A DNA stretch of 21,397 bases. Source: a virus. The translations under genes and the position numbers were made by a program. Below are positions 1 through 19,322 of this stretch, piece after piece. The notes under the pieces were generated by a model, which worked only from the letters and a program-made list of their open reading frames with translations, was not told the DNA's origin and made no database searches. Position 1 is the first letter of the stretch, and each line of letters starts with the position of its first letter. The stretch covers positions 1 through 21,397 of IMG/VR virus record IMGVR_UViG_3300031510_000046; one strand, given 5' to 3'.

Positions 1-647
1 GAGAAAGACTTCTTAGAGAACACTCTTCGGGAACATTTGAGGAAATCCATCCTTTAGGTGATAAGGTTGTAAAGGTTGTCGGATCGAATTACGAAATTAT
101 TGCTGGTTCCTCTAATGTTCTTATAAAGGGGAATGTAAATCTTACGATTGAGGGAACTAAGAAAGAATTGATAAAGGGTAACTACATTCTTGAGGTAGAG
201 GGTGACTATACTCGTAAGATACATAAGAACGAAAGAGTTAAGGTAGGTGCTGGTTCTTCTGGCGGAAACCTAGAATCTGAGATTAGAGGCAACTATTCAT
301 ACAACATAAATGATGAAGTAAAGGGTAGAGTTGGTAAAGATCAGACCGTTACTATTCTAGGAAATGAAATAAGAGCAGTTGAGGGTTACTTTAAACATAC
401 TGTTACTGGTGATATAACACAAAAGACTACAGGTGGTTCTATGAAGAGAAGTGCATTTTTAGATATTTTAGAAGAAGCTGGATTTGACTTTTCAGTAAAA
501 TCTCTAGATGTAGATATTCGATCTAAGTGGAGTACGACTCTAAAAGCTGGAATAAGTATAGTCGAAACCGCTGGTAATACAATAGACAGTACTGCTGGAA
601 CGATATATACAATCGTTGGTACTACTAAAGTGGATATTAACCCATAA
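1..647 (+). CDS. 5: Baseplate central hub/spike protein gp5-like, C-terminal part (5' end outside window)
   Basis: The reading frame is open from base 3 and ends with TAA at 645-647, so this is the 3' end of a gene that starts upstream; in-frame TTG or ATG codons inside it are not true starts. The visible residues open with RLLREHSSGTFEEIHPLGDK, a sequence typical of the OB-fold/needle junction of gp5/VgrG spike proteins. They continue with short repeated beta strands (SSNVLIKGNVNLTIEG, GNYILEVEGDYTRKI, GNYSYNINDEVKGRVG), the pattern of a trimeric beta-helical needle. In T4, gp5 forms the membrane-piercing spike at the centre of the baseplate and carries a lysozyme domain. Whether a lysozyme domain is present here cannot be seen. 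The next gene is a PAAR tip protein, which supports the call. The stop overlaps the next start as TAATG. Confidence 0.85.
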   Translation, partial: ERLLREHSSGTFEEIHPLGDKVVKVVGSNYEIIAGSSNVLIKGNVNLTIEGTKKELIKGNYILEVEGDYTRKIHKNERVKVGAGSSGGNLESEIRGNYSYNINDEVKGRVGKDQTVTILGNEIRAVEGYFKHTVTGDITQKTTGGSMKRSAFLDILEEAGFDFSVKSLDVDIRSKWSTTLKAGISIVETAGNTIDSTAGTIYTIVGTTKVDINP

Positions 648-922
648 TGGCCCCCGTTCATAGACATGGAGATGCAAGATCGTGTGATGCAACCACTGTG
701 GTAAGCATAAACACTAATGTATTTGCAAATGAAAAACTTATTGCGGTACATGGTAATTTTAACACTCATGGATCAGGGCCATTAGTTGCTGGGTCTAAAA
801 ACGTATTCATAAAAGGGATTGCTGTTGTAAATCATACACCCGATAACGGATTAGCTGACTCAGCAGGTCATAATCCCACCCCAACCGCAGCTGGTTCTGC
901 GAATGTTAATGTAGGAGATTAG
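647..922 (+). CDS. 5.4: PAAR-domain spike tip protein (gp5.4-like)
   Basis: This 91-residue protein starts MAPVHRHGDARSCDA and has a GSKNVFIKGIAV segment at residues 49-60, both typical of PAAR proteins. Its length is close to T4 gp5.4 (97 residues, from memory). PAAR proteins form a small cone that caps the gp5/VgrG needle and is held by a metal ion. His5, His7, His35, His41, His63, His75 and Cys13 are the visible candidate ligands, but which ones bind metal cannot be decided from sequence. The ATG overlaps the gp5 stop by one base (TAATG) and has no strong Shine-Dalgarno sequence, so translation is probably coupled to gp5. The adjacent gp5-like needle gene is the expected partner. Confidence 0.85.
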   Translation: MAPVHRHGDARSCDATTVVSINTNVFANEKLIAVHGNFNTHGSGPLVAGSKNVFIKGIAVVNHTPDNGLADSAGHNPTPTAAGSANVNVGD

Positions 923-923
923 A

Positions 924-1631
924 ATGGTAGATTTTACAACACCAAATTTGCCTGGCGCAAACGCATTGTTTAATGCAGTCGCAGCAAAAGTGGAAAGTAT
1001 AGACATTGCCGCTGTAGCTAACAAATCAAAAGATGCTGCAGATGTAGTGGATAAGCTTAAAGCAGACCTAGAAGATTTGAAAGCAAAAACTGGCCTTGTT
1101 ATTCCTACATTACCTACTCTACCATCATTAAACTTACAATCGGAACTAACTGCATTAACAAATTTAACGCCTGGTAGTTCTCAATATGCAGCTTCGTTAT
1201 CTTCTTTAGCCAGTAAATTCGGTTCTGGTCTTACTGCTGGCGGATTTAGTTTAGATAGTATAGTGTCTGAAGCATCTACTACTCTTGCATCTGCTGCGAA
1301 AGCTTTATCAGCTGGAATATCCAGTGTATCCTTATCTTCAGCATTATCTGCAGCCATACCAAACTTCGAATTGCCTTCAGGCCTGAATGAAGCGATAGAG
1401 AAAGCAAAAGCATCATTACTCGCAGATTTACCTTCATTAAAAGAACTTGCACATTCTTTTTCAGAAAGTATAACAGCAGATGAAACAAAAGGATTATATG
1501 GTGATAAATTATCAAGAGAAGCAATGGAATCAAATTTAAGTAGTTTGGCGTCAAACTTGGAATCTGCGGTATTTAAGTTTAATGCAAAGGCGAAAAGGTT
1601 ACAAACAAACTCAGAACAAATGGACGCATAG
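924..1631 (+). CDS. Hypothetical Ala/Ser/Leu-rich helical protein of the hub region
   Basis: This 235-residue protein is not recognised. The start is supported by AGGAG at 913-917, six bases before the ATG. Residues 12-56 look like a long amphipathic, possibly coiled-coil, helix rich in Ala, Lys and Asp. A Pro-rich linker follows (IPTLPTLPSL, 60-69). Residues 75-160 are a low-complexity Ser/Ala/Leu stretch, and the C-terminus (about 155-235) is again predicted to be helical and charged. There is no signal peptide and no convincing membrane segment. It sits directly behind the spike-tip gene and ahead of the late promoter for gp25, so a role in the hub or spike or in their assembly is an inference from position only. 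Confidence 0.75.
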   Translation: MVDFTTPNLPGANALFNAVAAKVESIDIAAVANKSKDAADVVDKLKADLEDLKAKTGLVIPTLPTLPSLNLQSELTALTNLTPGSSQYAASLSSLASKFGSGLTAGGFSLDSIVSEASTTLASAAKALSAGISSVSLSSALSAAIPNFELPSGLNEAIEKAKASLLADLPSLKELAHSFSESITADETKGLYGDKLSREAMESNLSSLASNLESAVFKFNAKAKRLQTNSEQMDA

Positions 1632-1641
1632 GAAAAATATT

Positions 1642-1905
1642 ATGGGTAAGAAGAAATCAAGCGAAGGTCAAGTATCTAACGGAGAAAGAAGAAATGTATC
1701 TTCATGGTCTAGAAAGGCTGGACGTAATAGTATTAGTGGATTAGAAAATCTATCAAATAAGGTTGCGGCATGGAAACAAGGTAAGAAAGTTTTCCTTACT
1801 ATCACGAATCCGATTAAGGGTGAGAAAAGTAAACCGTTTGTAAGAAAAGAAGCAAAAGAAATATGGGGTAAATATTCTCCATATTCTATGAAACAAACTC
1901 ATTAA
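1642..1905 (+). CDS. Small basic hypothetical protein
   Basis: This is an 87-residue protein starting MGKKKSSEGQ. The ATG at 1642 is preferred over an in-frame ATG at 1582, because 1642 has AGGA at 1630-1633 upstream and avoids a 50-base overlap with the previous gene, while 1582 has no ribosome binding site. The product is rich in Lys and Arg with few acidic residues, suggesting contact with nucleic acid or with an acidic protein partner. The central part (SGLENLSNKVAAWKQGKK) looks helical and is followed by a short beta-like segment (VFLTITNP). I do not recognise a family with certainty. It ends just seven bases before the late promoter of gp25, closing the hub operon. Confidence 0.7.
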   Translation: MGKKKSSEGQVSNGERRNVSSWSRKAGRNSISGLENLSNKVAAWKQGKKVFLTITNPIKGEKSKPFVRKEAKEIWGKYSPYSMKQTH

Positions 1906-1911
1906 CATTTG

Positions 1912-1919
1912 TATAAATA
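1912..1919 (+). promoter_or_regulatory. T4-type late promoter upstream of gp25
   Basis: A perfect TATAAATA, the T4 late-promoter -10 element recognised by the phage late sigma factor gp55, lies in one of the two longest intergenic gaps of the window, 23 bases before the gp25 ATG. As in T4 late promoters, no sigma-70 -35 box is evident. The start of transcription is expected about 12 bases downstream, which leaves room for the strong GAGGAG ribosome binding site at 1927-1932. It would drive gp25, gp6 and the gp7-like gene. Confidence 0.85.
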
Positions 1920-1941
1920 ATATGTAGAGGAGTTCGAAGAA

Positions 1942-2400
1942 ATGGCAATTACAGAAAGTCTAAGAAATAACGATGCTTATACTGATGCTCAGGGCCAGAA
2001 CAAATCTTCTAGGTCTGCTCAGATATATTCTGACTTAGACCTTTTCTTCGGAATGAATAATTCTGATAAAGATGTAAATATAATATATGATGTTCAAGCA
2101 GTAAAGAGATCAGTACGAAATCTTGTATTAACAAATCAATACGAAAAACCATTTCACCCAGAAATATATTCTGGAGTACGGGGGATGTTATTTGAATTGA
2201 TGACTCCAACAACAGCAGTCATTCTTGCCCGACAGGTTGAAGATGTTATAGAAAATTTTGAACCAAGGGCAAGGTTAGTGGGGGTAAGGGCTTCCCCAAA
2301 TTTAGATCAAAATTCTTATGAAGTGTCTGTAGAATTTTATATTGTTAATGCCCCATCAGAACTAGTTGAATTAACACTAGCATTAGAGAGAATACGATAA
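1942..2400 (+). CDS. 25: Baseplate wedge protein gp25 (sheath initiator)
   Basis: This 152-residue protein matches the gp25-like family. It has YSDLDLFF (residues 29-36), then AVKRSVRNLVLTNQYEKPF, FHPEIYSGVRGMLFELMTP (71-89) and the hallmark NFEPR (105-109), the EPR core motif shared by T4 gp25 and by contractile systems such as type VI secretion TssE. In T4 it joins gp6 and gp7 in the baseplate wedge and nucleates sheath polymerisation. It is about 20 residues longer than T4 gp25, the extra being a polar N-terminus. The start has GAGGAG at 1927-1932. The stop overlaps the gp6 start (TAATG). Older annotations call the family 'gp25-like lysozyme', but no lysozyme active site is apparent here. 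Confidence 0.95.
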   Translation: MAITESLRNNDAYTDAQGQNKSSRSAQIYSDLDLFFGMNNSDKDVNIIYDVQAVKRSVRNLVLTNQYEKPFHPEIYSGVRGMLFELMTPTTAVILARQVEDVIENFEPRARLVGVRASPNLDQNSYEVSVEFYIVNAPSELVELTLALERIR

Positions 2401-4310
2401 TGGCCAATGGAACCAATAGAAGACTAGACGTATCTGAATTTGATTTTGATGATATAAAATTAAACCTTAAAACATTTCTTAAAGCACAAACTACTTTTAA
2501 AGATTATGATTTTGAAGGTTCTGGAATAAATTCTCTATTAGATGTTCTAGCATACAATACGCACTATCTTGGTTTTAACTTGAATATGGTTGCAAATGAA
2601 ATGTTCATGGACACTTCAACCCTGCGATCCAGCATCGTGTCTCATGCAAAAACATTGGGGTATGAAGTAGATTCTTGTAGAGCTCCTTATGCAGATGTTA
2701 ATATTATTTTAAATGATTCAACATTAAGTTCCGCAACAATGTCAGCAGGAACAGTGTTTACTACCAAAGTTAATAATATAGATTATCAGTTTGTTACTGT
2801 AGAAGATATGACAAGGACAACTGCCGGGTCTTCAATACCTTTTAATAATATTAAAATTTATGAAGGCACATATGTTACATCTAGGTATACAGTAGATTAT
2901 AGTAGTGTTGATCAAAGATTTATTTTACCAGAAGATTCAGCAGACACTTCGACTCTGTCAGTAGAGGTACAAAATTCTGCAACTGATACGGCAACCACCA
3001 CATTTATAAAAGCAACAGATATTTCTCAATTAACTAGAAATAGTAATGTTTATTATCTTCAAGAAGTAGAAGCAGGAAAATTTGAAGTATACTTTGGAGA
3101 TGGAGTTGTAAGTAAAAATTTAACGGATGGTAATGTTGTTTTTCTTAAATATGTGGTAACAAATAAAAAAGAGGCAAATGGAGCTGATTCTTTTACTAGT
3201 TCTGGTTCAATTGATACGGTTACTAGTGTAACAGTGACAACCCTTAATAAGGCTGTAGGTGGAAGTGAATCAGAGGCATTGTCTTCCATTAAAATTAATG
3301 CTCCTTTAGACTATGCTTCTCAAGGAAGATGCGTAACATCAGAAGACTATAAGTTATATGCGAAAAAATTATTTCCACAAACACAAGCAGTTATGGTCTT
3401 TGGTGGTGATGTCGGTTCTTATGATCCTAGTTTGGGAGTAACTGATGTTGCTTCATACGGAAGAGTTTATATCTCTATTAAATCTACTACAGGGAATGTT
3501 TTAACATCTGCACAGAAAGCTCAATTAATATCTGATTTTCGAAAATACAATGTTGCGTCTATTACTCCAGTTATTATCGATCCAGAGATTGTCTATATTA
3601 TTTTAAATGTTAATTTTAGTTTTGATTCCAGTAAAACAACTAAAGAAAAAAATACTCTTGTTTCCGATGTTAATACTACGCTTACGAATTATAATAATAA
3701 TTCACTAAAAAGTTTTAATAATATGTTTAGACATTCTTATGTGTCAACATTAATTGATGATACGAATGATTCTATTTTAAGTAATGTTACAAATGTCACT
3801 TTAGCAAAATACTTTACCCCCATTTTAGGCACTACTGATAATACTGGGTATAATCTTTATTTTAATAATGCATTTTATAATCCTCACACTGAACATAATA
3901 AGTCTTCTGGTGGTATTGTAGGTTCCACTGGGTTTATTGTAGGAATAGAAACAGAGGTTAGTTTCTTTGATGATGATGGGTCAGGAAACCTAAGAAGGTA
4001 TCAAGGACTAATAACAAGAACATATATCGATTCAACAGCTGGTACTATAAATTATACAACGGGTCATGTCATAATTAATGCAATAAAAATTTCATCCATA
4101 TCTAATGTTGATGGTTTACCTTCAACTAAAATTAGGATGACGGTTATACCCTCATCTAAGGATATTGTACCTGTTCGTAATCAAATCTTAGAATTAGATA
4201 TGGTTAACATATCTGTATCAGGAGAAATAGATACTATTGCTGTAGGAGATTCTGGTGCAAGTTCATCATACACCACTTCAACAAGTTATTCAAGTAATAC
4301 GAGTTATTAA
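2400..4310 (+). CDS. 6: Baseplate wedge protein gp6
   Basis: This 636-residue protein is close in length to T4 gp6 (about 660). Diagnostic segments are YDFEGSGINSLLDVLAYNTH with the following FMDTSTLRSSIV (residues 36-80), QGRCVTSEDY (308-317) and YNVASITPVII (about 383-393), each having a counterpart in T4 gp6 as I recall it. gp6 dimers form the inner ring that links neighbouring wedges and works with gp7, gp25 and gp53. It lies between gp25 and the gp7-like gene, all probably on one late transcript. Its ATG shares a base with the gp25 stop, so translation is likely coupled. The last 18 or so residues are a Ser/Thr/Tyr-rich low-complexity tail whose role is unknown. Confidence 0.95.
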   Translation: MANGTNRRLDVSEFDFDDIKLNLKTFLKAQTTFKDYDFEGSGINSLLDVLAYNTHYLGFNLNMVANEMFMDTSTLRSSIVSHAKTLGYEVDSCRAPYADVNIILNDSTLSSATMSAGTVFTTKVNNIDYQFVTVEDMTRTTAGSSIPFNNIKIYEGTYVTSRYTVDYSSVDQRFILPEDSADTSTLSVEVQNSATDTATTTFIKATDISQLTRNSNVYYLQEVEAGKFEVYFGDGVVSKNLTDGNVVFLKYVVTNKKEANGADSFTSSGSIDTVTSVTVTTLNKAVGGSESEALSSIKINAPLDYASQGRCVTSEDYKLYAKKLFPQTQAVMVFGGDVGSYDPSLGVTDVASYGRVYISIKSTTGNVLTSAQKAQLISDFRKYNVASITPVIIDPEIVYIILNVNFSFDSSKTTKEKNTLVSDVNTTLTNYNNNSLKSFNNMFRHSYVSTLIDDTNDSILSNVTNVTLAKYFTPILGTTDNTGYNLYFNNAFYNPHTEHNKSSGGIVGSTGFIVGIETEVSFFDDDGSGNLRRYQGLITRTYIDSTAGTINYTTGHVIINAIKISSISNVDGLPSTKIRMTVIPSSKDIVPVRNQILELDMVNISVSGEIDTIAVGDSGASSSYTTSTSYSSNTSY

Positions 4311-4312
4311 AA

Positions 4313-7300
4313 ATGGCACCTTTTGATTCTGGTCTAGTAACAAAAATCTCTCCACTGATTGAGGGTCAAGTCCCTGATTTTATTCAGAGCGATCATCCCA
4401 AATTTGTAGAATTCCTCAAACAGTATTATCAATTCTTAGAAGCTGCAGAATTAACTGTTGATGGTATTATCAATAATGTTATTCAAGAAACTGAGTCAAC
4501 AAATTTTATTTGGGGTGAAGATGAAACAAGAATTGTTCTTGAAGTAGGTGGAGGAACAACAGGAAAATTTATAGAAGGGGAAATAATTACAGGGGCAACA
4601 TCTAAAGCTACTGCAACTGTATTAGTAGATGATCTTTCTAATGATACTTCCAGAATGTTTATATCTTCGCAACAAAAATTTGAAATTGGAGAAACAATAA
4701 CAGGATCAACCTCTAGTGCAACAGCAATAGTAAATACCTATCGTGCTAATCCTGTACAGACTATTCAACAATTACTAGACTATGCAAATACAGACAACAC
4801 TACTTCTCTTATGCTGGATGAAATGCAAAGACAGTTTATGGATATTATTCCTAACACACTGGCATCAGGAACATCTAAACGTAATCTTATCAAAAATATT
4901 AAAGACCTTTATGCAGCTAAAGGAACTTCTGAAGGACACAAATTATTTCTACGGTTAATGTTTGATGAAGAAGCTGAGACATTTTATCCCACAAAATATA
5001 TGCTAAGAACTTCTGATGGTAATTGGAATAAACCAGCTACCATTCGTTGTGAGAATACACCTGGCGCTGTTGGTTCAGAAGTTATAGGTCAAATCTTAAC
5101 AGGCAGAACTTCTGGTTCAACTGTGTTTATTATTAATGCCCTTGAATTGATTCAAGGTGCTTCTTCAGTCACTGAATTTGAAATAGACACTGATTCATTA
5201 GTAGGAACTTTTGTTGAAGGAGAAACACTTTATGCCACAGGTGTGAATTCTGATGTGGAACAAAGATTTGTAATTCAAAAAATAGTTACAGGGATTACTG
5301 TTCTAGACGGGGGTATTCTTTATAGCGTTGGTGATAATATAACTCTGGACGCTTCGGCTGGTAATGGATTAGCAACTGCAACAGTAAATACTGTTTCTAC
5401 AGGTGGGGTTAATGAAATAGTTGTAGATGCTGGAGGAAGTAATTATAGAGTAGGTGATGCTTTAGTTTTTAGTAGTACTTCTGCATCTATATCTGCCACT
5501 GGTTATGTTTCTGTGATTGGCGGTGCTATGTTATCAGAAGCTTCAGATGATTCCGATGGGTCTGGTGATTATATTATATTTGAAGATGGAACAAATGCCT
5601 GTTATCCAGAACTTAATTTTTCTACTCATGAAGAAGATACTATAGTTTTAAATGGAACAGATAGTTCTTCTACTGATGCTAATTGGAAAATTGTTGGTGA
5701 ATTCGGTACTCCAAGATTGAGAGTTTCAGATAATTCTATTGGTTCTAAAATAGTAGAGGAACTGGGCACAAGTTCTACTTATGGTGAAATAGCTGGAGTT
5801 AAATTAACAAGTGGTGGTTCTGGTTATGGTGCATTGCCAGCTATAACAATAGCAAGTTCTTATGGTACAGGGGCCATAATTATACCTACCACAAAAGATA
5901 TTGGCTCTATATTGGATGCAGAAATTCTAGATGCTGGTTTTCTTTACAGGGAAGCTCCATCAGTTTCGGTTCCAACAAATTTTATTTTAAAAGATGTAAC
6001 AGGAACTTTTTCTCCGGCCTCCGTACTGTCTTCTCATGTAGGTACTGTAACTTCATACGATACCAACACACAAGTTTTGTCTACAAATATTGAAGACGGT
6101 GTTAAAGTTAAAATGGAACAAGAAGATACTATTATTTCTCAAAACATAGAACAAGAGGAAAACACAGAAGTATTTTTCTCTAGAATTTTGGGTGATAATG
6201 TTATTCAGAGCAATACTTTAGAAAATCTTACAGATAGAGGCCTTCATATTACGGATGCTGTTGGTATAGAGGCTCAAACAGATTTGGTAGAAGGATTTGT
6301 TGATACCATCGTGACAGATGCTGAAGATATTCGCATTAATCAAATAAGTTTAGAAAATGAAGCTGATTATTCTTTAGATGATGAAAAAATTCAACTTGAA
6401 GATCAAAATATTGCTGGCGTTGGTAGAGATATCGAACAAAATTCATTTTTCAAAATCTATAGTAATAACGAATATGAAACAGGTGGTATGATACTTCAGC
6501 TTGATGGTATATCTGTCGGCGATTCAATTTTATTGAGTGGTACAGATGGTAGCTATTCTAATGCAGGAGATGAATTACTTTTAGATGGAACAGATGCTGG
6601 TGGGACTGATGCTGGAGGTAAAGTTTTACAACAGAGTGATGATGAAGGAGATGCAATTTTATATGAATCTAATCCAATGGTGTCTAACAAAACGCAAAGA
6701 AAAGATAAGTTTGTATTGGATGGGTCTAAAATTCAAAAATTCACTACTGGTGGGTGGATAGATTCTCTTGATACTATTCCTCTTATTTTAGAGACAGGAG
6801 AAAACATTCTACTGGACGGTACAGATTCAAATTCTTTAGATAGTGGCAGTCATTTACTATCACAAGTTTCGGATTCGGAACAAAATAGAATTAGAGATGA
6901 TAATCTCGAATCATCAATAACAAATAGTCAAGTAGTTTGGATTCCTTCTTCTGAGGGTGATGATATAGAATTAGAGAATGAGACTGGCAATTTATTACTA
7001 GATGGTACTACTAGAAATTCAATGGCTTTCGTAACATCTCTTACAACTTTTCATTTCGCAACTTTAAATAATGGTGATAAAGTTAAAACAGAGGGTATAA
7101 ATTCTTATTTTAAAAATGTTCCTATAGAAAGCATTAGAGCTCTAGATGAGACTGATGGTGTACTATTAGAAGATGGTTCTTCTGATATAGGAGTTCAATC
7201 TTTATTTTCAATAACTTTAGACAGTACAGCATCTGGTGGCGTTGATGCTGGTGATAACATTCAATTAGAAGATGATATTAATGAAGGACTTCCAGATGGA

Positions 7301-10300
7301 GGTAGACTCTTAGGAGAAAGTTCTGATGTGAAAGTTAATACTAAAGAAATGCTTATACTAGAAGGTAAAGATGGCAATTCTTCATCATCAGATATAAATG
7401 GTTTCTATGATATATTTGAAAACAAAACAATAAACCACGGTGGAAGTTCTGCTTCGAGATTAATAACAGAAGGCGGCGATGGTATTATTGATGAAGAAAG
7501 TATCGAAAAAGATAGCATTGGTACTTCCATAACAATTGGTGCTGGCAGTAAGATAATTCTTAACAGTCATCAAATTTCTTCTGATGTTGAAACCATTAGA
7601 ATAGTTTTTGATCAAACTGATTCGTCTGGGTCAAATGCTGGAGGTGTACTCAAGGCTGATGGTATTTCTGCAACAGAACGGTCTGGTAATCTTCTTATGC
7701 AAGAAAGCGGAATTTCTGCTGGTGTATCAGATACAGATGTAGGTGAAAATCTTTTATATGAAGCAGAAGCTTTCTTAACTGGTAATATTATATTAGATCG
7801 TACTGATGATAACGATTCTGATTTTGGTTCTGGGTTGATTAATGAAACTGAAAATTCTTTTAAAGGAAAGACGTTAACAACATCAGGTGGTGCTACTGGA
7901 AAAGTTATTGCTTCAAACATAGCAAAATTAATTTCTGAGATAGATTTTATAACAACTAAAGTTGGAAATTATAAAAATACAGATAGTTTAATTTCAGAAG
8001 ATGTTGTTAGAATTCAAGATTCATATTACTATCAAGATTTCTCTTATGAGGTTAGAATTGGCCAATCTGTAGCTACATATATGAACGAATTGAAACGTGC
8101 AGTACATCCTTCTGGTTTTGCTGCATTTGGTAAAGTTTCATTTGCTACTCTAATATCAATGGCTATGCCATCCAGCTCTGGAGGAGGACGGATTGATGTT
8201 CCATCAACAACATTCACTCCAGAACTGGCTTCTGTACTGGAGGCCATATTTAATTTAAGAATTAAACTTAGACTTGATATTCCGAAGTTTTATGAATCAG
8301 GTAATTTGTTTCAAAAACTTATGTTAGAATCTGGAGGTGAGTCACAATTTAATTTTGCTCTTGATGGAACAGATTATGGTACAGCAGCTGAAAGTCCAGG
8401 CTTTGATGCTATCGCATCTGAAGATTCAGACGATGATGGTGACAATATTATTATCACTGGTTCTGATGATGGTTCTCAGGTAGATGCTGGTGATCAAATT
8501 ATACTAGAAGGTACTGATGCAAGTGGTACAAATAATTTCGATATTACAGGCGAATATTCTTATCTAATTCTAAACGGCACTAGTATTTCAGATGGTGAAC
8601 TTAACGATGCCGGTTCTTATTGTGTATTGAGTGGTTCTGCATTAGGAGTTTATAATCTTGTAGATGCTGATAGCGACTCTCTTGTTCTAAACGGAACTGA
8701 TGGATCAAGCACTTTCTATAGAATTATACACGAAGATGGTAATGATGCTGGTAGTCGTATAGTTACTGATGCTATTATAGTTGACAGTAGTGTCTTTAGT
8801 GTACAACATTTAATTGTATCAGAAGATGCCAATGGCGATAATATTATTTTAAATAGGACAGATATTCTTGGTGCTGATGCAAATAGTAAATTAGTATCTG
8901 AATCTGCAGCTGGAGTTGGTGATAATGATCGTGATAAATTATTCCTAAGACAATTAACAGTAAAAATATCTCCTCCTAGGCCCAAAATTTTAACCTCTTA
9001 TGGTTTAGGTCTTATGGGCGATGGTAGTTTTACTGAGGCTTCTAGTGTTTCAACTATTCAATTGGAAGATGCCTTACGTAAACGTGGCCCAACTATTAAC
9101 TCAGATAATTTAATACTTGATGGAGTTGATGTTGGTGAAAAAGGCGATGTTAATGATATTAAGTATGGTGGAGATCCCATTCAATTGGAAGAAAGTGATG
9201 CTCTTATGCTTGGTACTTCTGTTTCTTTTGATGACTATGCACAGGTTAGTAGAGGTAAGTTTTCTTTATCTGCCGAAGATGGAGATAATCTCGCTTTAGA
9301 TAATCCATCAGGTGGTATTTTGTTATCAGAAGAAGATGTAACTGTATCATTTCCTATTAACGAGTTCTTGCGCCCAGATATTATGGTTATGGAAGGTGCA
9401 TATGATAGACATTCTGAATGGGGAAGATTTGTTTTGGATGGTACATCTTCTGATGGAAGTACGGGTGCATTAAATTCTACTGGTTATGATTATATTGTTC
9501 TTGATGGTATAGATGCAATGCAAAGTGGTGCTGATGATAATTTAATATTTGAAGAACAGAATGATAAAAATAAATCTATCGATGGTAACACTAATATTGG
9601 TATACTTATGGAGAATCATCATGTTGAGGGTGGTGCTTTTCTAAGAGAATATGGTGGCGGTGCTGTATCAGAAGGAGATAAGATTATACTGGACGGTACT
9701 GATGGCAGTTCTACAGATGCTGAAGATAATTTCATCCAAGAGAATACACCAGATTCTAGAATTAGTCAAAACTCTGGCGAATTTGTGTTGGAAAACAATA
9801 CTCAAGTTTTCTTAACAGCAACTGCTACTGATGCAAATGGATCTAATTCTGGTAGAGTTTTTGGATTGGAAGATGGGACAGGAGGATTTTTAAGTGAAAC
9901 CGCTGGAATTCCTGGCCAAGATATTCTTTTAGAGTCAGGATCAAGTAGCACTATTGGATCAAAATTATTATTAGATTCTCAAGTTATTGAAATAGAGTCT
10001 GGTATTAATGATGGAGAAATTCCAGATCCAAATATTGGAGATAATAGTATATTCCCAACCTATAGTACCCCAGCAATAATATCTACAAGGCCTATAGGAA
10101 GAATGTCTTTACAGGATGAGTCGCCTTCAACAATTCTATCACAAGAAGGTGATACAGGGGATGATGTTGTTTTAGATGGTACATCTACAATTGGTTCCAT
10201 TGCTCTTAATGGGACAAATGGTACTTCTAGTGACGAAAATAGTTCTCTTATTCTAGATGGGACTGACAGTTCTTCAGATAATATTGGAGATAAAGTTCTT

Positions 10301-10588
10301 CATGAAGACGCTGTTCTTATAGATGGTGGTGGTTATATCCTTATAAGTTCAGCAATATCAGATCAAGCTTCAGGTGGTCTTATGGAGATGAATGGAACGG
10401 ATGGATCATCTACAAATGCAGGCAGTTATCTTCAGTTTGAAAATGGTACACATGAGAGTTTATTAGGTACTGCGCCTGGATTTTTGGCGCCTGGCCAAGA
10501 TGCAGAATCATTTGATAATAATGGCGCACTAGTAAAAACTACTTTTGATAACACCAATCAAACTTATGATGTTCTTGAAGGTGTTTAG
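4313..10588 (+). CDS. 7: Giant gp7-like baseplate wedge protein with LDGTD repeat arrays
   Basis: This 2091-residue protein directly follows gp6. Residues 1-60 (SPLIEGQVPDFIQSDHPKF, then FLKQYYQFLEAAE) and 150-300 (DLYAAKGTSEGHKLFLRLMF at 198-217) resemble the C-terminal part of T4 gp7, including its DFYSTKG-KFLFKVLYNEE region. A second conserved segment at about 1185-1335 (SYYYQDFSYEVRIG at 1237, HPSGFAAFG at 1265) resembles the RSRSYYVMKI and RFVHPVGFGF region of T4 gp7. Small GEtITGsTSgAta beta modules occur near residues 83-145. Two long arrays of acidic LDGTD-type repeats fill about 405-1185 and 1345-2050. The protein is about twice the length of T4 gp7 (1032) and appears to lack the T4 N-terminal half. 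The T4 comparison is from memory. The name gp7 rests on these motifs and on position. The ATG lies two bases after the gp6 stop. Confidence 0.8.
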   Translation: MAPFDSGLVTKISPLIEGQVPDFIQSDHPKFVEFLKQYYQFLEAAELTVDGIINNVIQETESTNFIWGEDETRIVLEVGGGTTGKFIEGEIITGATSKATATVLVDDLSNDTSRMFISSQQKFEIGETITGSTSSATAIVNTYRANPVQTIQQLLDYANTDNTTSLMLDEMQRQFMDIIPNTLASGTSKRNLIKNIKDLYAAKGTSEGHKLFLRLMFDEEAETFYPTKYMLRTSDGNWNKPATIRCENTPGAVGSEVIGQILTGRTSGSTVFIINALELIQGASSVTEFEIDTDSLVGTFVEGETLYATGVNSDVEQRFVIQKIVTGITVLDGGILYSVGDNITLDASAGNGLATATVNTVSTGGVNEIVVDAGGSNYRVGDALVFSSTSASISATGYVSVIGGAMLSEASDDSDGSGDYIIFEDGTNACYPELNFSTHEEDTIVLNGTDSSSTDANWKIVGEFGTPRLRVSDNSIGSKIVEELGTSSTYGEIAGVKLTSGGSGYGALPAITIASSYGTGAIIIPTTKDIGSILDAEILDAGFLYREAPSVSVPTNFILKDVTGTFSPASVLSSHVGTVTSYDTNTQVLSTNIEDGVKVKMEQEDTIISQNIEQEENTEVFFSRILGDNVIQSNTLENLTDRGLHITDAVGIEAQTDLVEGFVDTIVTDAEDIRINQISLENEADYSLDDEKIQLEDQNIAGVGRDIEQNSFFKIYSNNEYETGGMILQLDGISVGDSILLSGTDGSYSNAGDELLLDGTDAGGTDAGGKVLQQSDDEGDAILYESNPMVSNKTQRKDKFVLDGSKIQKFTTGGWIDSLDTIPLILETGENILLDGTDSNSLDSGSHLLSQVSDSEQNRIRDDNLESSITNSQVVWIPSSEGDDIELENETGNLLLDGTTRNSMAFVTSLTTFHFATLNNGDKVKTEGINSYFKNVPIESIRALDETDGVLLEDGSSDIGVQSLFSITLDSTASGGVDAGDNIQLEDDINEGLPDGGRLLGESSDVKVNTKEMLILEGKDGNSSSSDINGFYDIFENKTINHGGSSASRLITEGGDGIIDEESIEKDSIGTSITIGAGSKIILNSHQISSDVETIRIVFDQTDSSGSNAGGVLKADGISATERSGNLLMQESGISAGVSDTDVGENLLYEAEAFLTGNIILDRTDDNDSDFGSGLINETENSFKGKTLTTSGGATGKVIASNIAKLISEIDFITTKVGNYKNTDSLISEDVVRIQDSYYYQDFSYEVRIGQSVATYMNELKRAVHPSGFAAFGKVSFATLISMAMPSSSGGGRIDVPSTTFTPELASVLEAIFNLRIKLRLDIPKFYESGNLFQKLMLESGGESQFNFALDGTDYGTAAESPGFDAIASEDSDDDGDNIIITGSDDGSQVDAGDQIILEGTDASGTNNFDITGEYSYLILNGTSISDGELNDAGSYCVLSGSALGVYNLVDADSDSLVLNGTDGSSTFYRIIHEDGNDAGSRIVTDAIIVDSSVFSVQHLIVSEDANGDNIILNRTDILGADANSKLVSESAAGVGDNDRDKLFLRQLTVKISPPRPKILTSYGLGLMGDGSFTEASSVSTIQLEDALRKRGPTINSDNLILDGVDVGEKGDVNDIKYGGDPIQLEESDALMLGTSVSFDDYAQVSRGKFSLSAEDGDNLALDNPSGGILLSEEDVTVSFPINEFLRPDIMVMEGAYDRHSEWGRFVLDGTSSDGSTGALNSTGYDYIVLDGIDAMQSGADDNLIFEEQNDKNKSIDGNTNIGILMENHHVEGGAFLREYGGGAVSEGDKIILDGTDGSSTDAEDNFIQENTPDSRISQNSGEFVLENNTQVFLTATATDANGSNSGRVFGLEDGTGGFLSETAGIPGQDILLESGSSSTIGSKLLLDSQVIEIESGINDGEIPDPNIGDNSIFPTYSTPAIISTRPIGRMSLQDESPSTILSQEGDTGDDVVLDGTSTIGSIALNGTNGTSSDENSSLILDGTDSSSDNIGDKVLHEDAVLIDGGGYILISSAISDQASGGLMEMNGTDGSSTNAGSYLQFENGTHESLLGTAPGFLAPGQDAESFDNNGALVKTTFDNTNQTYDVLEGV
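5530..7860 (+). repeat. Degenerate coding repeat array 1 (LDGTD type) in the gp7-like gene
   Basis: About a dozen divergent copies of a roughly 20-35 residue unit, approximately [I/V]-x-L-[D/N]-G-T-D-x-S-x-x-D-A-G-D-x-[I/L]-L-x-E. Clear copies are LNGTDSSSTDANWKI (DNA from 5650), LSGTDGSYSNAGDELL followed by LDGTDAGGTDAGGKVL (6532-6630), LDGTDSNSLDSGSHLL (from about 6812), LDSTASGGVDAGDNI (from about 7219), FDQTDSSGSNAGG (from about 7606) and LDRTDDNDSDFGSGL (from about 7794). The DNA copies have diverged well beyond the protein motif, so the array is old or under selection at protein level. Confidence 0.8.
8356..10450 (+). repeat. Degenerate coding repeat array 2 (LDGTD type) in the gp7-like gene
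   Basis: A second set of the same acidic repeat, on the C-terminal side of the conserved gp7 segment. Copies include LDGTDYGTAAES (from about 8360), LEGTDASGTNNFD (from about 8505), LNGTDGSSTFYRI (from about 8688), LNRTDILGADANSKL (from about 8850), LDGTDGSSTDAEDNF (from about 9688), LDGTSTIGSIALNGTNGTSS (from 10171), LDGTDSSSDNIGDKVL (from about 10254) and MNGTDGSSTNAGSYL (from about 10388). A few copies nearly match at DNA level (for example around 9690-9720 and 10390-10420). The unit is the same as in array 1. Confidence 0.8.
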
Positions 10589-10597
10589 TAGAACTTG

Positions 10598-10605
10598 TAT
10601 AAATA
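10598..10605 (+). promoter_or_regulatory. T4-type late promoter upstream of the gp10-like gene
   Basis: A second perfect TATAAATA lies 27 bases before the ATG at 10633, in a 44-base intergenic gap. It shares the flank CTTGTATAAATA, close to the ATTTGTATAAATA flank of the promoter at 1912. A ribosome binding site (AAGGG, 10621-10625) follows. It would restart late transcription after the 6.3 kb gp7-like gene and drive the gp10-like, gp8, DUF4815, coiled-coil and fibre genes. Confidence 0.85.
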
Positions 10606-10632
10606 TAAAGAAGAAGACGAAAGGGTTATTTA

Positions 10633-11352
10633 ATGGCATATCAAGCAGTTGGGATAGGAACAGTCGCAGATGACGGTACTGGTGATTCTCTAAGAATCGG
10701 TGCAGATAAGGTTAATGATAACTTTGTCGAAATTTACACTGCTCTAGGTAATGGGTCTGATATATGTAGTGGTATTTCTTCTACTGCAACTGTTGTTACT
10801 TTAGGTTCCCCAGTAATTAATACTCCTACAATCACTGGTGCGGTTGGTGGAACACAAACATCTGCAACTATTACAACTCTTGCAAATACTACTTTAAATA
10901 CTACTACAGTAGTTGCTGGCACCATGACAGTTGCAGCTGGTTCTATTACAGATAGTTCTGGTGAGATCACTTTCGTTAATGAAAACTTAGTAACTACTGG
11001 TACATTGGGTGCTGGTACAACCACATTAGGTGCTTTAACTTGTGATACTATTACTTCTACAGGTGCTACCATAGTATTTGAGGGTGCAACTGCTGATGCA
11101 AATGAGACAACTCTTACTGTTACCGATCCTACGGGAGATCGTACTATCACTTTTCCAGATGCCACGGGAACGGTGGTAACAACTGGTGATACAAACTCAG
11201 TAACAGGAACAGTAATTGCTGCTGATACTGTCGCAGAAGCAAATATGGCCGATGATGCAATTGGTTCTGTGCAATTAAAAACATTATCTACTCTACTAAT
11301 TAAAAACTCTAGTGGATCAACTTTAAAAACTTTATATGGTGCTGGCGCATAA
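10633..11352 (+). CDS. Short gp10/tail-fibre-like structural protein
   Basis: This is a 239-residue protein. Residues 7-40 (GIGTVADDGTGDSLRIGADK, then VNDNFVEIYTALGNG) match the N-terminal domain of T4 gp10 as I recall it (NVVDDGTGDYLRKGGIKINE). In T4 this region helps attach gp10, the wedge pin protein, to the baseplate. The rest is a Thr/Ala/Gly-rich repetitive beta region with the fibre motif FEGATADANETTLTVTDPTG (from 11077) and LPDATG-like strands, ending GSTLKTLYGAGA. It lacks the receptor-type and C-terminal domains of full-length gp10 (602 residues in T4). It is therefore probably a baseplate-attached adaptor or short fibre, not a complete gp10. A late promoter and AAGGG site precede it. 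The same FEGATAD module recurs in the fibre gene at the right end. Confidence 0.8.
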   Translation: MAYQAVGIGTVADDGTGDSLRIGADKVNDNFVEIYTALGNGSDICSGISSTATVVTLGSPVINTPTITGAVGGTQTSATITTLANTTLNTTTVVAGTMTVAAGSITDSSGEITFVNENLVTTGTLGAGTTTLGALTCDTITSTGATIVFEGATADANETTLTVTDPTGDRTITFPDATGTVVTTGDTNSVTGTVIAADTVAEANMADDAIGSVQLKTLSTLLIKNSSGSTLKTLYGAGA

Positions 11353-11371: not shown

Positions 11372-12868
11372 ATGACTGCTATTATAACAGAAAAATTTAG
11401 ACAACATAATGCCGATCAGTTCTTTGAATCGTTCAGTGAAACTGATGGAAATACGTATTACTTGTTTATAGGTAAGTCCACATCTTTTACTTCTGGTACA
11501 TCTGGCGGTTCTGATGGCGCTCCTCCTACTCCAACTGATGGTATCGGAGAAGAATTTTATGTTTGGGATGATATGATTGCTGCAAAGAAAATAAGTTCAG
11601 CGTTTATAACTTATGCTCTTCCTCGTAGAAACTGGACGAATGGTACAATCTATGATCAGTATCATCATAATGTTAATTCTTCAAACACAGCAACATCTGG
11701 AGCAACAAATGTTTATGATTCTTCTTTCTTTTTCATGACTTCTGATTATCGTGTATACAAAGTTATTGATAATGGTGGTGGTATTGCATTTAGTGGTAGT
11801 GTTCCTACATCAGAATCAACTAGCCCATTTGAATCTGGTGGATACGTTCTACAATATATGTACTCATTATCCAGTTCGCAAATAGACAAATATTTAACAA
11901 CAGATTTTATGCCTGTATCTACTAACAGTACTATAAGTGCAGCTGCAACTGATGGTAAAGTTTCTTCTCTTAAAGTTACTTCTGGTTCTGGTTATACAAA
12001 TGGAACATACTACTCTGCTGTATATGGAGATGGTACAAGTCAGGGAACATCTTCTGGTGCAATTGTCAGAATTACCGTTGCAAATGGTTCAATTTCGGCC
12101 TTTGGTCTAACTGCTGGTTCTGATACAACAATGCAAGCCGGCGGATCAGGATATACTTATGGCACTGTCAATCTTTCAACTGGATATACTTTCTCTGATA
12201 CTTCTCTTTCCACTGCTTCTGTTATGGGGGGTTCTGGAGGAACGATTGAAGTTATAGTTTCACCTAAAGGTGGCCATGGGTTTGACGCTATTAGTGAATT
12301 AGGTGGTCATTATATTATGATGAATACTACACTAACTCAATCAGAGGGTGATGATTTTACTGTTGCTAATGATTTTCGTAGAGTTGGAGTGGTTGTTGAT
12401 CCTACTAATTATGATACTACAACTGTTGCAACTGGTTCTACAATTAGACAAACATATGCATTGAATCTTACATCCGTAGGCGGTACATTTGATGCAGATG
12501 AAAAAATCTCTCAAGCAACTACTGGAGCTATAGGTAAAGTTATAGATTGGGATTCAAGTTTAAATATTTTATATTATCAACAAGAACGGTTTGGTGATTA
12601 CGGAACGAATGGTACTAGTGGTGGTTATGTAGCATTTAGCGGAGCAAATGTAGTGACAGGTGCAACCAGCGGTGCATTGGGAACACCTAATGCAGCTTCA
12701 GATTCTGCTGTAACTTTAGCTGGTTCTGGAACAATAACTTTTACAAATGGGTATGCAAATCCAGAACTTCAACCTGATAGTGGTAATATTATATATATTG
12801 AAAATAGAAAACCGATCAGTCGTGCTTCAGATCAAACAGAAGATATTAAATTAATAGTGGAGTTCTAA
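11372..12868 (+). CDS. 8: Baseplate wedge protein gp8
   Basis: This 498-residue protein has both ends of gp8. The N-terminus is IITEKFRQHNADQFFESF, then NTYYLFIGKS (27-36), PTDGIGEEFYVWDDM and YALPRRNW (81-88). The C-terminus is IENRKPISRASDQTEDIKLI (476-495), which corresponds to the MENRPP...DQTEEINILFTF end of T4 gp8 as I recall it. gp8 dimers bind gp7 on the outside of each wedge and hold gp10. It is about 165 residues longer than T4 gp8. The extra lies centrally (about 195-450) and contains GSGY beta repeats (VTSGSGYTNGTYY near 11975, AGGSGYTYGTVN near 12137) and a GEtITG-type module (FDADEKISQATTGAIGKVI, near 12490). The ATG is supported by GAGGA at 11360-11364. Confidence 0.92.
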   Translation: MTAIITEKFRQHNADQFFESFSETDGNTYYLFIGKSTSFTSGTSGGSDGAPPTPTDGIGEEFYVWDDMIAAKKISSAFITYALPRRNWTNGTIYDQYHHNVNSSNTATSGATNVYDSSFFFMTSDYRVYKVIDNGGGIAFSGSVPTSESTSPFESGGYVLQYMYSLSSSQIDKYLTTDFMPVSTNSTISAAATDGKVSSLKVTSGSGYTNGTYYSAVYGDGTSQGTSSGAIVRITVANGSISAFGLTAGSDTTMQAGGSGYTYGTVNLSTGYTFSDTSLSTASVMGGSGGTIEVIVSPKGGHGFDAISELGGHYIMMNTTLTQSEGDDFTVANDFRRVGVVVDPTNYDTTTVATGSTIRQTYALNLTSVGGTFDADEKISQATTGAIGKVIDWDSSLNILYYQQERFGDYGTNGTSGGYVAFSGANVVTGATSGALGTPNAASDSAVTLAGSGTITFTNGYANPELQPDSGNIIYIENRKPISRASDQTEDIKLIVEF

Positions 12869-12871
12869 AAA

Positions 12872-15800
12872 ATGCCTAATAAAACAGATTTAAATGTTAC
12901 CCCGTATTATGATGATTTTGATAAATCTAAAAACTTTCAGCAAATTTTATCTAGGCCTGCGTATGCTGTTCAAGCACGTGAACTTACACAGATGCAGAGT
13001 ATTCTTAAAAATCAAATTGAACATTTAGGTAATTTTTCTTTATCAGAAGGTACTATGGTTATTCCTGGCTCCCTTAATCTAATGTCGAAACTCAAAGGTA
13101 TAAAATTAGAAACAAATTTCGGTGGTGCAACTATTGATGTAACACAATATCCAGATGAAGGAACTATTTTAACTGGTATAACATCAGGAGTTAAAGCACT
13201 AGTTATTCATAAGGAAGTTGGAACGACTACTGATGAGCCGATGATTTTTGTTAAATATACTCGAGCATCAGATGACAATAGTTCCTCAGAGTTCTTCTCA
13301 GGAGAAGATATTTCAGCAGATGTCGCCGTAACACATGGAACTACTGTATTTGCGGCAGGGGCTGCATCAATAAAAACAATTGCAACAAACGCTGCGGTAA
13401 ACTCTACAGGAGCTCAGGTAGAAGCTGGGATATATTGGATACGAGGTCAATTTGTTGAAACAAGTAAACAAATTGCAATAATTGCAAAAAACAATAGTTT
13501 AGGTGATGGAAGAGTTGGGTTTAATCTTTCGGAAACTATTGTTACTCCAGAAGAAGATTCTACTCTTTTAGATAATGCTTCTGGAACCTCAAATTATGCT
13601 GCAAAAGGCGCTCACCGACTAAAAATTACTGCAACATTAACAAGTATTGCTGTAGGGTCAACTGATGATGCTAATTTTGTAGAATTAATAACAGTTCTTA
13701 AAGGAATTGGACAAAGTACAGTAAAAACTAGACTTGGTGGTATACTTGAAACTTTAGCAAAAAGAACTCACGAAGAATCTGGAAATTATACTGTACGTCC
13801 TTTTACTTTTGAAATGAAAGAATCAGTTACACTTAATGAAAATATAGGTGTATACAATAAAGGAGAAGCAACCCGATTTGGTGGCGTTGCTTCTAATGAT
13901 CTTTTGGCTCTAAAAGTTTCGTCCGGCAAAGCATATATTCGAGGATATGATGTTGAGAAAATAGTATCAAGTGTTCTTGATATTCCTAAATCACGTAATT
14001 TTAATTCGGTAAATTCTGGAGTTACTACTTATGATGTAGGAAACTTTCTTAATATTACAAATGTTTATGGTAGTCCTGATATATCTTTTATTAGTGGAGA
14101 AACTACACCATATAAACAAATTGAACTTTTTGATACTGCAACTGCAACAAGGGGAAGTTCTTCTGGCACTAGGATTGGAGTATCTCGAGCTCGAACGATA
14201 GAGTATTCTTCTGGTACACCAGGCGACACATCTTCAATCTTTAAGTTATATCTTTTTGATTTTCGTCCATTTACATATCTAACTTTAGATGGAACGCCCT
14301 CACCAACACTAGAAGCTAATCATAGTAATGGTGGTGTTCAAGTTAAAGGTGTATCTTCTAAAGCAACAGGTTGGGTATTTGCAGATGGTACTGGAAGTGG
14401 TACAGTTATTCTTACTAACGTATCTGGTACATTTATTGATGGAGAAAAAATTACAGCTTCGGATTCTGCTGAAACAGATTCTATAGTAGAGACTTCTGGT
14501 AATGTTGATATTGTAATTTCACGAATAGTTACAAAAAATGTTGCAGAAGCTAGACAAATCTTTATGTCTGATGATGACGGCGGCCAAAATTTCAGTGCAG
14601 ATATTGTATTGGATAAAGTACCATCACCAGAATCTTTTTTAGTATTGGAGCCTGGTACTACTGGAAATGATTCGGGAGATAAGATTTTATCAGAGGGAGG
14701 AACTGTTCTCAAGTCAGTTCCTTTTAGTGTACAAAGAGCGGCCGCTACACCCGGCGGTTCTACATTAAATATAGCTAAATTAAAATTTCCAGAAAAAAAT
14801 GTTAGCTTATTTAAAATGAATAAAGAAAATGTTAAAACGCATCTTACTGCATTAAATAATGGGGTAAGTGATACTTCATATTATTTAAGAAAACAATTTG
14901 TTACAACATCAAGCAGTGTTGGTGTTGTTACTCTTAGTGGCGGTACGAATGAAATATTTCAACCACATGCAGAACCAGATTATATGATTACTATTCTTGT
15001 TGCTGGTTCTGGTGGATCTGGAGTTCAAGGTGATGTGGTAAGTGCATCTATTGGATTCTCTGGGGGTGGAACTAGTTCTGTTACTATCACTAATGAGGGG
15101 GTTTTTGGGAATGGTGCAAAGTTAAAAATTACTGCTACTCTACTGAAAACTTCAGCAATAGCAAAAACAAAATCTGCAAAATTAATGAAACAATTAAAAG
15201 TCTCCCCAGGCGCTGCTGATGCATATGGTACAAGGCCAACCGATAAAACTATTTCTCTAGGTCGAGGAGATGCAATTAAACTTGTTTCTGTTCTAGATTC
15301 AGAATCAACTTCAACAGACGCTATATCACCACAATTAACTTTAGGGACTACCGTTGGAAATTTTATTAGAGGTGAAGAAATTAGTGGTTCAAATAGTGGG
15401 GCAAAAGGAAGAATTATAGAGAATTCTTCTCCTATGGCTTTTGTTTATAAAAGAGGAACAAGTGTAGAATTTAGTGCAGCAGATACAGTTACTGGATTTT
15501 CTAGTCTCGCATCTGCACCTGTTACTGCTGTCACAATAGGTAGTAGTAATATTACAGAAAAGTATCAACTAGATACAGGTCAGCGTGATAATTATTATGA
15601 TATTTCTCGAATTATTAGAAAGCCTGGCGTTAGTTCTCCTCTAGGAAAACTTCTTGTTATTTATGATTATCTAGATCATGGTACTGGAGACTTTTTTACG
15701 GTTGATTCTTATACAGATGTTGCTGATCAAATGACATACGAAGATATTCCAAAATATTCTGCTACCAAGGTTGATCCTGATGACCCGGCTCCTTCTGGTG

Positions 15801-18800
15801 AATATAATCTGCAAGATGTTTTTGATCTACGTCCAAGGGCAGAGGATATTGCTGGTACGTCAACGAATTTATCTACTGTAGATGAAATCACAGGAAACTC
15901 TTTTGATTTTTTTAATAGACAATTTGAAAGTACAGGTTCTTCTACAGTAAACTTTATTAAACCTGGCAGTTTAATTATAACTGATTTTGAATATTACCTT
16001 GGTTATAGAGCAAGATTAACATTAAATGCTGATGGCGAATTTGATTTTGCTAGAGGTAGGTCTTCCGAAAACCCAAGTCTTCCAAAAGAAAATGAACAAA
16101 ATATGTTATTGGCAAATATATATGTTCCCCCTTATACATTTAAACCAAACGATGTTCAAATTCGTAGAGTTAAAAATCAACGGTTTACGATGAAAGATAT
16201 TGGTAAACTTGAAGAACGGGTTAATCATGTAGAGTATTATACATCTCTAAATTTGCTTGAAAGAAATGCTGATAGTTTTCAGATACAAGATGCTAATGGA
16301 TTAGATCGTTTTAAATCTGGATTTGTTGTAGACAATTTTGCTGGACATTCTGTAGGTGATGTTAAACATGAAGATTATAAATGTTCTATAGATATGCAAG
16401 AAAATGAATTACGTCCTTTACATACAACTAAAGGCGTTTCTCTAACAGAAGCGGCAACAACAGATGTAGAAAGAACAGTTTCTCACTATCAAAGAACTGG
16501 TGATCTTATTACTCTTCCTTACAAAGAAGTTGTTTTTACAGATCAACCTTTTGCCTCTAGAGTTGAACGTGTTACACCTTTACTTCTTTCAAATTGGGTG
16601 GGAAACATACAGCTTGATCCATCTGGAGATGAGTGGTTTGAAATTGAATATGCTCCTGATCTTATTATTAATGTTGAAGGAAATTTTGATACTTTTACTG
16701 CTGCTAATCAAGATGCTGTTGGTACTGTATGGAATGCTTGGGAAACTGCTTGGTCAGGTACGACAGTTACGGATTCTGTCGGCAGCGATAACAGTGTAAC
16801 TCGAACAACCACTACCACTGCCTCACAAAGAAGGCAAGGTGTAGAGACATCAATTGTTGCACAGATTGATCTAGAATCTCAAGGATCAAGAATTATTCAA
16901 CGTGCATTTATTCCTTTCTGTCGAGCAAAGAATATTACATTTACAGGTACAGAATTTTTACCAAATATACGATTGTACACATTCTTTGATGGTGTTGAGG
17001 TATCTCAGTATGTCACACCTCTTACTGGGTTTACTACAGATGCGGCTGATGTCAGTGGAGTTATACAAAAAGAAAGTCCGTTAATAACTTCAGCTGCTGG
17101 TAAAATTCAGGGTATTTTTGCACTACCTGATCCTAAAATTGAAGGAAATCCAGTATTTAGAACTGGAGAAATAACATTTAGACTTACTTCAAGTACGAGA
17201 GATGTAAGATCAAAACACCCAGAAACTGCCGGCAATGCCATATATCATGCTGTTGGTATATTAGAGACAGAACAAGAAACTATTATTGCTACACGAAATG
17301 CTGAAATAGTTGTAACTTCGGGTTCTGAAGATAGAAGTGTTTCTTCATCTTCGGGGTTTGTAATTGCAGCACCTGCTGGAGATGATGATGATTGGGGAGG
17401 GCCGGATCCAATTGCTCAAACATTCTTTGTGGAACCTAATTTTGACAATACAGTTGCCATGGCAGATAATTTAGATCCAAATAATACAGATGCTATAGCT
17501 CGAAGTCGAGCAACAAATTCTCCCGGCCGTTTCATAACATCTGTAGATGTTTTCTTTTCTGAAAAGGATGATATTTTACCAGTTTTCTGTGAGCTCAGAG
17601 CTACTGGTATGGAAAATGGTAGTTCTGACGGTGTACCGACTAAAAAGATTTTGCCTTTTGGTAGGAAGATAATTGAGCCTTCACAAGTAAACATATCAGA
17701 TGATGCGACTGTTGCAACTAAATTTACGTTTCCTTCTCCTGTCTATGTTAAAAATCAGACTTCATATGCCATTTTATTGGGATCGAGCTCACCAAAATAT
17801 AAAGTTTGGATTTCTCGAATGGGAGAAACAGATATTGGTGGTTCAAGAATGATTTCAGAACAACCACATGTTGGTGTTTTATTTAAGAGTCACAATGATA
17901 GAGTTTGGGCACCATCGATGACGGAAGATATGAAATTTACAGTATTTTGTGCTGACTTTGACATTAGTAAACCTGCGGTAGTTGAACTTAATAATGATGA
18001 ACTTCCAGTTAAAAGATTGCAGAAAAATCCTCTGACTTTTTCTCATGGAAATACAGCACTATTAGTAAACCATAAGAATCATGGGATGTATGACGTAAAT
18101 AATAATGTTACTATTTCTGGTGTGATATCTGAAGGCAAAACAACTCTCTCAGCTGCAATAGATTCTTCTGCAACAAGTATAACTATAGCTAATGGAACAA
18201 ATTTTGATGATACGACAGGAAAGTTTGCATATGACTCTAGTAATCAGTGGTGGATCAAAATTGATGATGAAATTATGAAGTATACTGTTATTAGTACAAC
18301 CAATATATCTACTATAACTAGAGCTCAGGATAATACTTCAGCTGCTAGTCATGCTGCTGGTGCAACGGTAGAATTGTATATGATTCACAAAGTACCATTC
18401 ACAGAGATTAATAAAACACATAATGCTATTGCAAATATGAATATAGATTCTTATACAGTTGTACTTACTAGTAGTCCAACGATTACGGGTGGATCAACTG
18501 ATGCATCTAATGGGGGACAGCTTGTTACAGCAACAGAGAATGCTGGTTATGATACTGGTCGGGCACTTTTATCTGTATTGGAATTAGAAAAAACGGAAAT
18601 TTTATCTACTATAACACCTATGACTTCAACATCTCCTTCTGGTGTTCAATCTTCATTTTCAATAAAGACCCCTATAGAAATAGACCTAAATGAAAATTAT
18701 GATTTTGATACGCCATATATGGTAGCTTCTACCATAAATGAAAGTCTTGAAAGTGGTGGTAATAAATCTCTTAAACTTGATGTATCGCTGACTTCACAGA

Positions 18801-19321: not shown

Positions 19322-19322
19322 A

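Follow-up and report, generated by a model that had tools for sequence, protein, structure and literature searches.

The question raised by the viral DNA fragment IMGVR_UViG_3300031510_000046 is whether the 2091-residue product of one of its genes is a baseplate wedge protein gp7 of the T4 type and, if so, where its additional sequence lies and what that sequence may do. The fragment was analysed over its whole length of 21,397 nucleotides (positions 1 to 21,397 of the IMG/VR record; 21.4 kb, here called the window), and the gene is a single uninterrupted open reading frame (ORF) at 4313–10588 on the plus strand. We consider it probable that the ORF encodes the gp7 of a marine T4-like myovirus in which the wedge core is retained and an acidic insert and tail form external loops. 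Residue numbers are those of the 2091-residue protein unless another protein is named.

The 2091-residue protein and T4 gp7

The gene and the motifs that it has in common with T4 gp7 are located as follows.

4313–10588, plus strand: predicted enlarged gp7 (baseplate wedge) gene, 2091 amino acids, located after gp6 and before gp8 like gene 7 of T4; matches Pfam PF23786 (Baseplate_wedge) as well as baseplate wedge families of PHROG
4904–4978, plus strand: DLYAAKGTSEGHKLFLRLMFDEEAE motif, counterpart of T4 gp7 733–757
5045–5242, plus strand: beta region of TSGATA type, bounds approximate; hhalign, which extends to T4 residue 826, places it against part of domain V of T4 gp7 (Pfam Gp7_5th covers T4 766–861)
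8027–8119, plus strand: YYQDFSY...HPSGF motif, residues 1239–1269, counterpart of T4 gp7 862–892

The DLYAAKGTSEGHK motif begins at residue 198 (its T4 equivalent, FYSTKG, is at 735) and the SYYYQDF...HPSGF motif is found at 1237–1269 (SYYVMKI...HPVGF in T4, at 862–888), in T4 order, as proposed by a first-pass annotation of this DNA. Comparison of the single sequence with T4 gp7 is too weak for a decision, and a phmmer search of the ORF against the PDB gave no match, so that profiles were required. A profile built from 57 relatives matches only two entries among all PDB sequences, 9f4a (E = 3.9e-7) and T4 (E = 5.9e-4). Both are gp7, and both alignments show the KGT motif followed by the HPxG motif. 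By hhalign the family matches T4 gp7 at 97.5% (E = 7.5e-12) over T4 residues 647–826. Against the full T4 gp7 the family scores 97.2%, compared with 0.1–0.4% for the VrlC, gp6 and gp8 controls, while a reversed T4 gp7 reaches at most 0.3%. The Pfam scan of the ORF detects PF23786 alone. For residues 1–400 the best cultured matches come from Methylophilales phage Melnitz, at 49.5% identity, and from the Pelagibacter phages Mosig and HTVC008M; all three belong to the Kyanoviridae.

The fold was modelled with AlphaFold2 (AF2) for L026, a natural relative of 811 residues that comes from the same clade and has few repeats, and whose beta core is predicted with a predicted local distance difference test score (pLDDT) above 90. 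Foldseek with this model places gp7 chains at ranks 1–3 (E = 3.3e-5 to 3.5e-3), and VIA-align 2 likewise ranks gp7 first to third, laying model residues 2–759 on T4 636–888 with Z = 8.4 (unrelated entries reach about 6–7). The model also matches barrels resembling domain 3 of EF-Tu, which we attribute to the wide occurrence of this small barrel and not to kinship. The L026 gene itself (L026:1999–4434) has almost no tail and an intact core, and is possibly a deletion derivative or an assembly error.

Profile and fold searches both put gp7 first, the latter by way of L026, and the first-pass proposal of gp7 identity and collinearity with T4 is borne out. Judged by profiles and by a predicted fold, the ORF is homologous to the C-terminal region of gp7 of T4 (1032 residues; PDB 5IV5, 5HX2), which it resembles in gene position, a collinear helical segment, the KGT motif, part of domain V and the HPxG helix. 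It differs in the spacing from the KGT to the HPxG motif (1065 residues compared with 149 in T4), in its long repeat tail, and in having no detected counterpart of T4 residues 1–640, for which nothing aligned above 0.2% in the family by hhalign. We did not treat the T4-type N-terminal 640 residues as defining gp7, because XM1 gp17, termed a gp7 orthologue in PMC10457771, has only 242 residues.

Core, insert and tail

The protein is divided into two core parts, the block between them and a C-terminal extension.

4334–6142, plus strand: core part 1, residues 8–610, collinear with compact relatives (BLASTP to Melnitz 8–585, 41% identity, E = 4e-124; profile match 8–610, 572 bits)
5957–6085, plus strand: first half of the predicted beta-barrel split by the insert, residues 549–591 (AF2 pLDDT 69–86; L026 equivalent above 90)
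6143–7837, plus strand: inserted acidic repeat block, approximately residues 611–1175, absent from Melnitz, Mosig and Cr30 (pLDDT mostly below 50)
7838–8275, plus strand: core part 2, residues 1176–1321, which contains the other half of the split barrel (profile match 106 bits; BLASTP to Melnitz 579–717, E = 1e-24)
8276–10585, plus strand: C-terminal acidic repeat tail, residues 1322–2091, with 7 repeat copies

BLASTP collinearity with the Melnitz gp7 (896 residues) covers residues 8–609 and then 1184–1321, and the profile of compact marine relatives covers 8–610 and 1176–1321. The two conserved segments of the first-pass annotation are present, the first running to about residue 610 rather than 300 and the second spanning 1176–1321. 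The block that separates them has about 565–575 residues, not the 800 or so first estimated, and the long extension noted after the second segment has about 770 residues instead of 700. Both additions are acidic. Aspartate and glutamate make up 19.5% of the insert and lysine and arginine 5.7% (net charge −79), and the corresponding values for the tail are 17.7% and 4.1% (net charge −103).

The insertion junction falls at nearly one profile position (562–578) in all five long proteins compared, of which the window protein is one, and HTVC008M has a smaller insert near that position. In an AF2 model of residues 480–1346 (mean pLDDT 38.7) the insert is mostly below 50, with no confident predicted fold, and the most confident stretches, at about 549–591 and 1181–1206, are the two sides of the insert. 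Strands 582–628 and 678–705 of L026 flank its own short repeat insert (about 629–677), and several barrel matches treat L026 580–692 as one domain spanning that insert. On these models the insert occupies a single site between strands of one small predicted beta-barrel, in agreement with the earlier suggestion that a core wedge protein grew by insertion. The insert has no match above cut-off in Pfam or PHROG, and the only PHROG or Pfam match of the tail is a weak one to phrog_3465, by way of the repeat. A tblastn search with the tail alone as query found no match in cultured phages.

The description of this gp7 as rebuilt did not hold, as its core is ordinary for the family, in which cyanophage proteins are longer (3007 and 4446 residues) and others compact (767–1016 residues). 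The compact marine gp7s of Melnitz, Mosig (874 residues) and HTVC008M (1016 residues) share the core, Melnitz being 41% identical over the first ~610 residues, but lack the large insert and have a much shorter C-terminus. The giant cyanophage gp7s of P-HM1 (4446 residues) and S-SSM7 (3007 residues) resemble the window protein in the core ends, in position and in their great enlargement. Unlike it, they are enlarged between other core elements, show repeated matches to one core beta segment and have almost no LNGTD repeat, which indicates that gp7 has been enlarged differently in different lineages.

The acidic repeat, patch exchange and possible roles

The repeat has the consensus IVLNGTDGSSTNAGDxIIxE, derived from 70 instances in relatives. 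With a model made from relatives only, the window ORF contains 12 copies scoring at least 6 bits compared with none in 100 shuffled sequences, five of them between the KGT and HPxG motifs and seven after HPxG, so that the acidic repeats noticed in the first-pass annotation are real. Off-diagonal self-matches number 161 compared with 0–11 in shuffles. Tandem Repeats Finder detected no DNA array within the gene at a score of 40 or more; the copies are old and diverged.

A pattern scan of viral contigs found at least 77 motif-bearing ORFs, of which, among the matches listed, at least 57 are gp7-like and at least 20 are others. The latter include members of a tail sheath family, a neck protein family (PF11649) and a tail-fibre family, and a few are short pieces at contig ends that are possibly gp7 tails. 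The LNGTDGSSTNAGD repeat lies within tail sheath, T4 neck-protein and tail-fibre proteins at L258:2462–4561, L273:5975–8137, L278:1187–2341, L270:1773–2786 and L321:2183–3382. The HTVC008M gp7 has four copies. It is quite possible, if short of an even chance, that in these marine phages the acidic repeats serve as a general element of the virion surface, for ion binding, solubility, spacing or stability, in many exposed loops, with gp7 as one carrier and with no role in host recognition. The motif-bearing ORFs that did not score as gp7 and the spread of diverged copies across both insert and tail are consistent with this explanation, which accounts for the distribution of the repeat no less well than fibre docking or host contact does. 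Alone, it leaves unexplained the exchange of one patch of the insert between near-identical phages, which in one pair of contigs occurs jointly with a gp9/10-like fibre-connector gene.

The exchanged patches in that pair, the window and contig L011, are the following.

6443–6670, plus strand: exchanged patch inside the insert, residues ~711–786 (47 of the 123 window–L011 differences)
10776–11076, plus strand: second exchanged patch, in the gp9/10-like gene (66 of the 123 differences)

Over 15.1 kb there are 123 differences between the two sequences, and only 10 of these are found elsewhere. A second case is provided by L017 and L045, which are approximately 98–100% identical over most of ~9 kb but ~41% divergent at gene positions 2100–2700, within the insert; L019 compared with L017 shows the same pattern. 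The neighbouring gene of gp7, in the part covered by both contigs, shows no exchange between L017 and L045. Since the insert and the gp9/10-like gene were exchanged together in the first pair and not in the covered part of the second, we do not claim co-exchange as a rule. The sequence comparisons make local exchange of an insert patch by recombination in at least two lineages the most likely explanation. This suggests an exposed, selected and fast-changing surface, and does not by itself demonstrate receptor binding. In a separate comparison, the window and L009 are identical over 1–11092 and from there to 14857 differ at 932 sites, a pattern resembling a recombination breakpoint.

Selection on the insert bears on the notion that it is a near-neutral expansion tolerated in exposed loops. 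The length from the KGT to the HPxG motif varies widely in the long clade (831–1120 residues) and L026 has nearly lost its inserts, as would be expected of such an expansion. The ratio of nonsynonymous to synonymous substitution rates in the insert is 0.19–0.44 in the six pairs with core part 1 identity below 90%, mostly faster than the core and below neutrality, indicating that the insert is constrained, though more loosely than the core. Insert and tail are also kept in 23 of 23 long full-length relatives. We regard near-neutral expansion as unlikely.

Docking or host contact by the additions is plausible because gp7-like proteins pair with two gp6-like subunits in the wedge (PMC6300606), are a hotspot of re-engineering according to PMC8894135, and bind spikes in XM1. 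By analogy with XM1, the insert and tail may be arms for docking fibres or spikes, a tentative proposal that we hold with less than even confidence. According to PMC10457771, XM1 gp17 binds tail spikes through a loop in its first domain (80–106) and its C-terminus (201–242), and the additions in the window protein are seemingly enlargements at the equivalents of these two places; the gp9/10-like patch exchanged between the window and L011 also fits. The likeness to XM1, however, is drawn from the published description of gp17, and L017 and L045 show no exchange in the stretch of the adjacent gene that both contigs contain. The gp7-like part of AlgoCIS Alg12 and XM1 gp17, compared by description only, are similar in their wedge-partner role and in known lineage-specific additions and fibre binding; they differ in that the available descriptions contain no long acidic repeat insert.

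In the reading that we favour, gp7 would be the single-copy partner of two gp6 subunits in each baseplate wedge. Residues 8–610 and 1176–1321 would be the retained wedge core, with N-terminal helices, KGT-motif helices, beta domains and the HPxG helix. The ~565-residue block enters a predicted beta-barrel at a single constant position, and the ~770-residue extension follows the core. Both would lie outside the wedge, forming long acidic loops that are probably flexible or ion-dependent and that leave the core unaltered. More tentatively, these loops might contact fibres, fibre connectors or the cell surface; such contacts would lead to patches being swapped by recombination while the core stays fixed. 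It is also conceivable, though in our view doubtful, that the repeat is a module placed in loops exposed on several proteins of the virion (gp7, sheath, neck and fibres) and that on gp7 it forms a variable surface, swapped by recombination, that tunes fibre or host-cell contact.

Several points weigh against the favoured reading. The second collinear hhalign segment (T4 862–892, E = 3.1e-4) is weak when taken alone (39%). The VIA-align superposition has a root-mean-square deviation of 21.9 Å over 212 residues and the L026 model a predicted template modelling score of 0.53, so that domain placement is unreliable and the superposition on T4 gp7 is local, not global. Where the loops lie on the baseplate is inferred rather than observed, and the occurrence of the repeat in sheath and neck proteins points to a general virion surface element rather than to a baseplate-specific or receptor role. 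Most other near-identical pairs lack a divergence peak, the exchange being seen in two lineages of metagenome assemblies only, and assembly chimerism may explain the exchanged patches. The new fibre-like or receptor-facing layer envisaged in the first-pass annotation finds no support in the searches: no fibre family is among the PHROG and Pfam matches of insert and tail, the AF2 model of the insert is of low confidence, and the repeat is also present in sheath and neck proteins. A receptor-facing role for the insert or tail is plausible but unproven.

Gene neighbourhood and the reported absence of gp7

The window genes are, in order, a gp5 fragment, a PAAR protein, gp25, gp6, the 2091-residue ORF, the gp9/10-like gene, gp8, a VrlC-like DUF4815 protein and a further structural protein. 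T4 has gp6, gp7 and gp8 at the corresponding place, whereas in the window the gp9/10-like gene separates the ORF from gp8.

2400–4310, plus strand: gp6 wedge gene (phrog_219, E = 9.9e-164; Pfam Gp6-like_1st)
10633–11352, plus strand: gp9/gp10-like fibre-connector gene (Pfam T4_gp9_10_N just below cut-off; phrog_677, E = 4.7e-18)
11372–12868, plus strand: gp8 wedge gene (phrog_438; Pfam Phage-Gp8)
12872–19321, plus strand: VrlC-like DUF4815 protein, not gp7 (Pfam DUF4815, E = 1.3e-55; PDB match ORF65 DUF4815, 9euf, E = 7e-38; hhalign to T4 gp7 0.1%)

Two further window ORFs, 924–1631 (235 residues) and 19295–19891 on the minus strand (198 residues), have no PHROG match.

A survey (PMC7029224) states that gp7 is lacking in pelagi- and cyanomyophages and that VrlC is substituted for it, and PMC3037559 lists gp7 among genes common to non-cyanophage T4-like phages. 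We find the absence of gp7 very improbable, as the window ORF and its orthologues in Melnitz, Mosig and HTVC008M match gp7 by profile, by the predicted fold of a relative and by their gene-7 position, and VrlC is a separate gene after gp8. Replacement of gp7 by VrlC is not supported, given the DUF4815 identity of the latter, ORF65 as its only PDB match and its 0.1% hhalign score against T4 gp7. The VrlC-like protein has only a beta-domain-like stretch in common with gp7 relatives (86.6%).

Some GenBank records already label the cyanophage protein gp7, so that its identity is partly known by annotation. RefSeq names the HTVC008M orthologue (L003:7436–10486) 'head closure Hc2', a label that probably stems from a common domain or repeat (phrog_460, phrog_3465). 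A limited literature search found no paper on the insert, the repeat or the exchange.

These results would restore gp7 to abundant marine phages in which the survey calls it missing, with the gp25–gp6–gp7 wedge staying a common core of T4-like tails. The lineage-specific growth of gp7 agrees with the view of this protein as a hotspot of baseplate change, and our analysis points to a repeat common to several virion proteins, together with a locally exchanged patch, as a possible determinant of host range.

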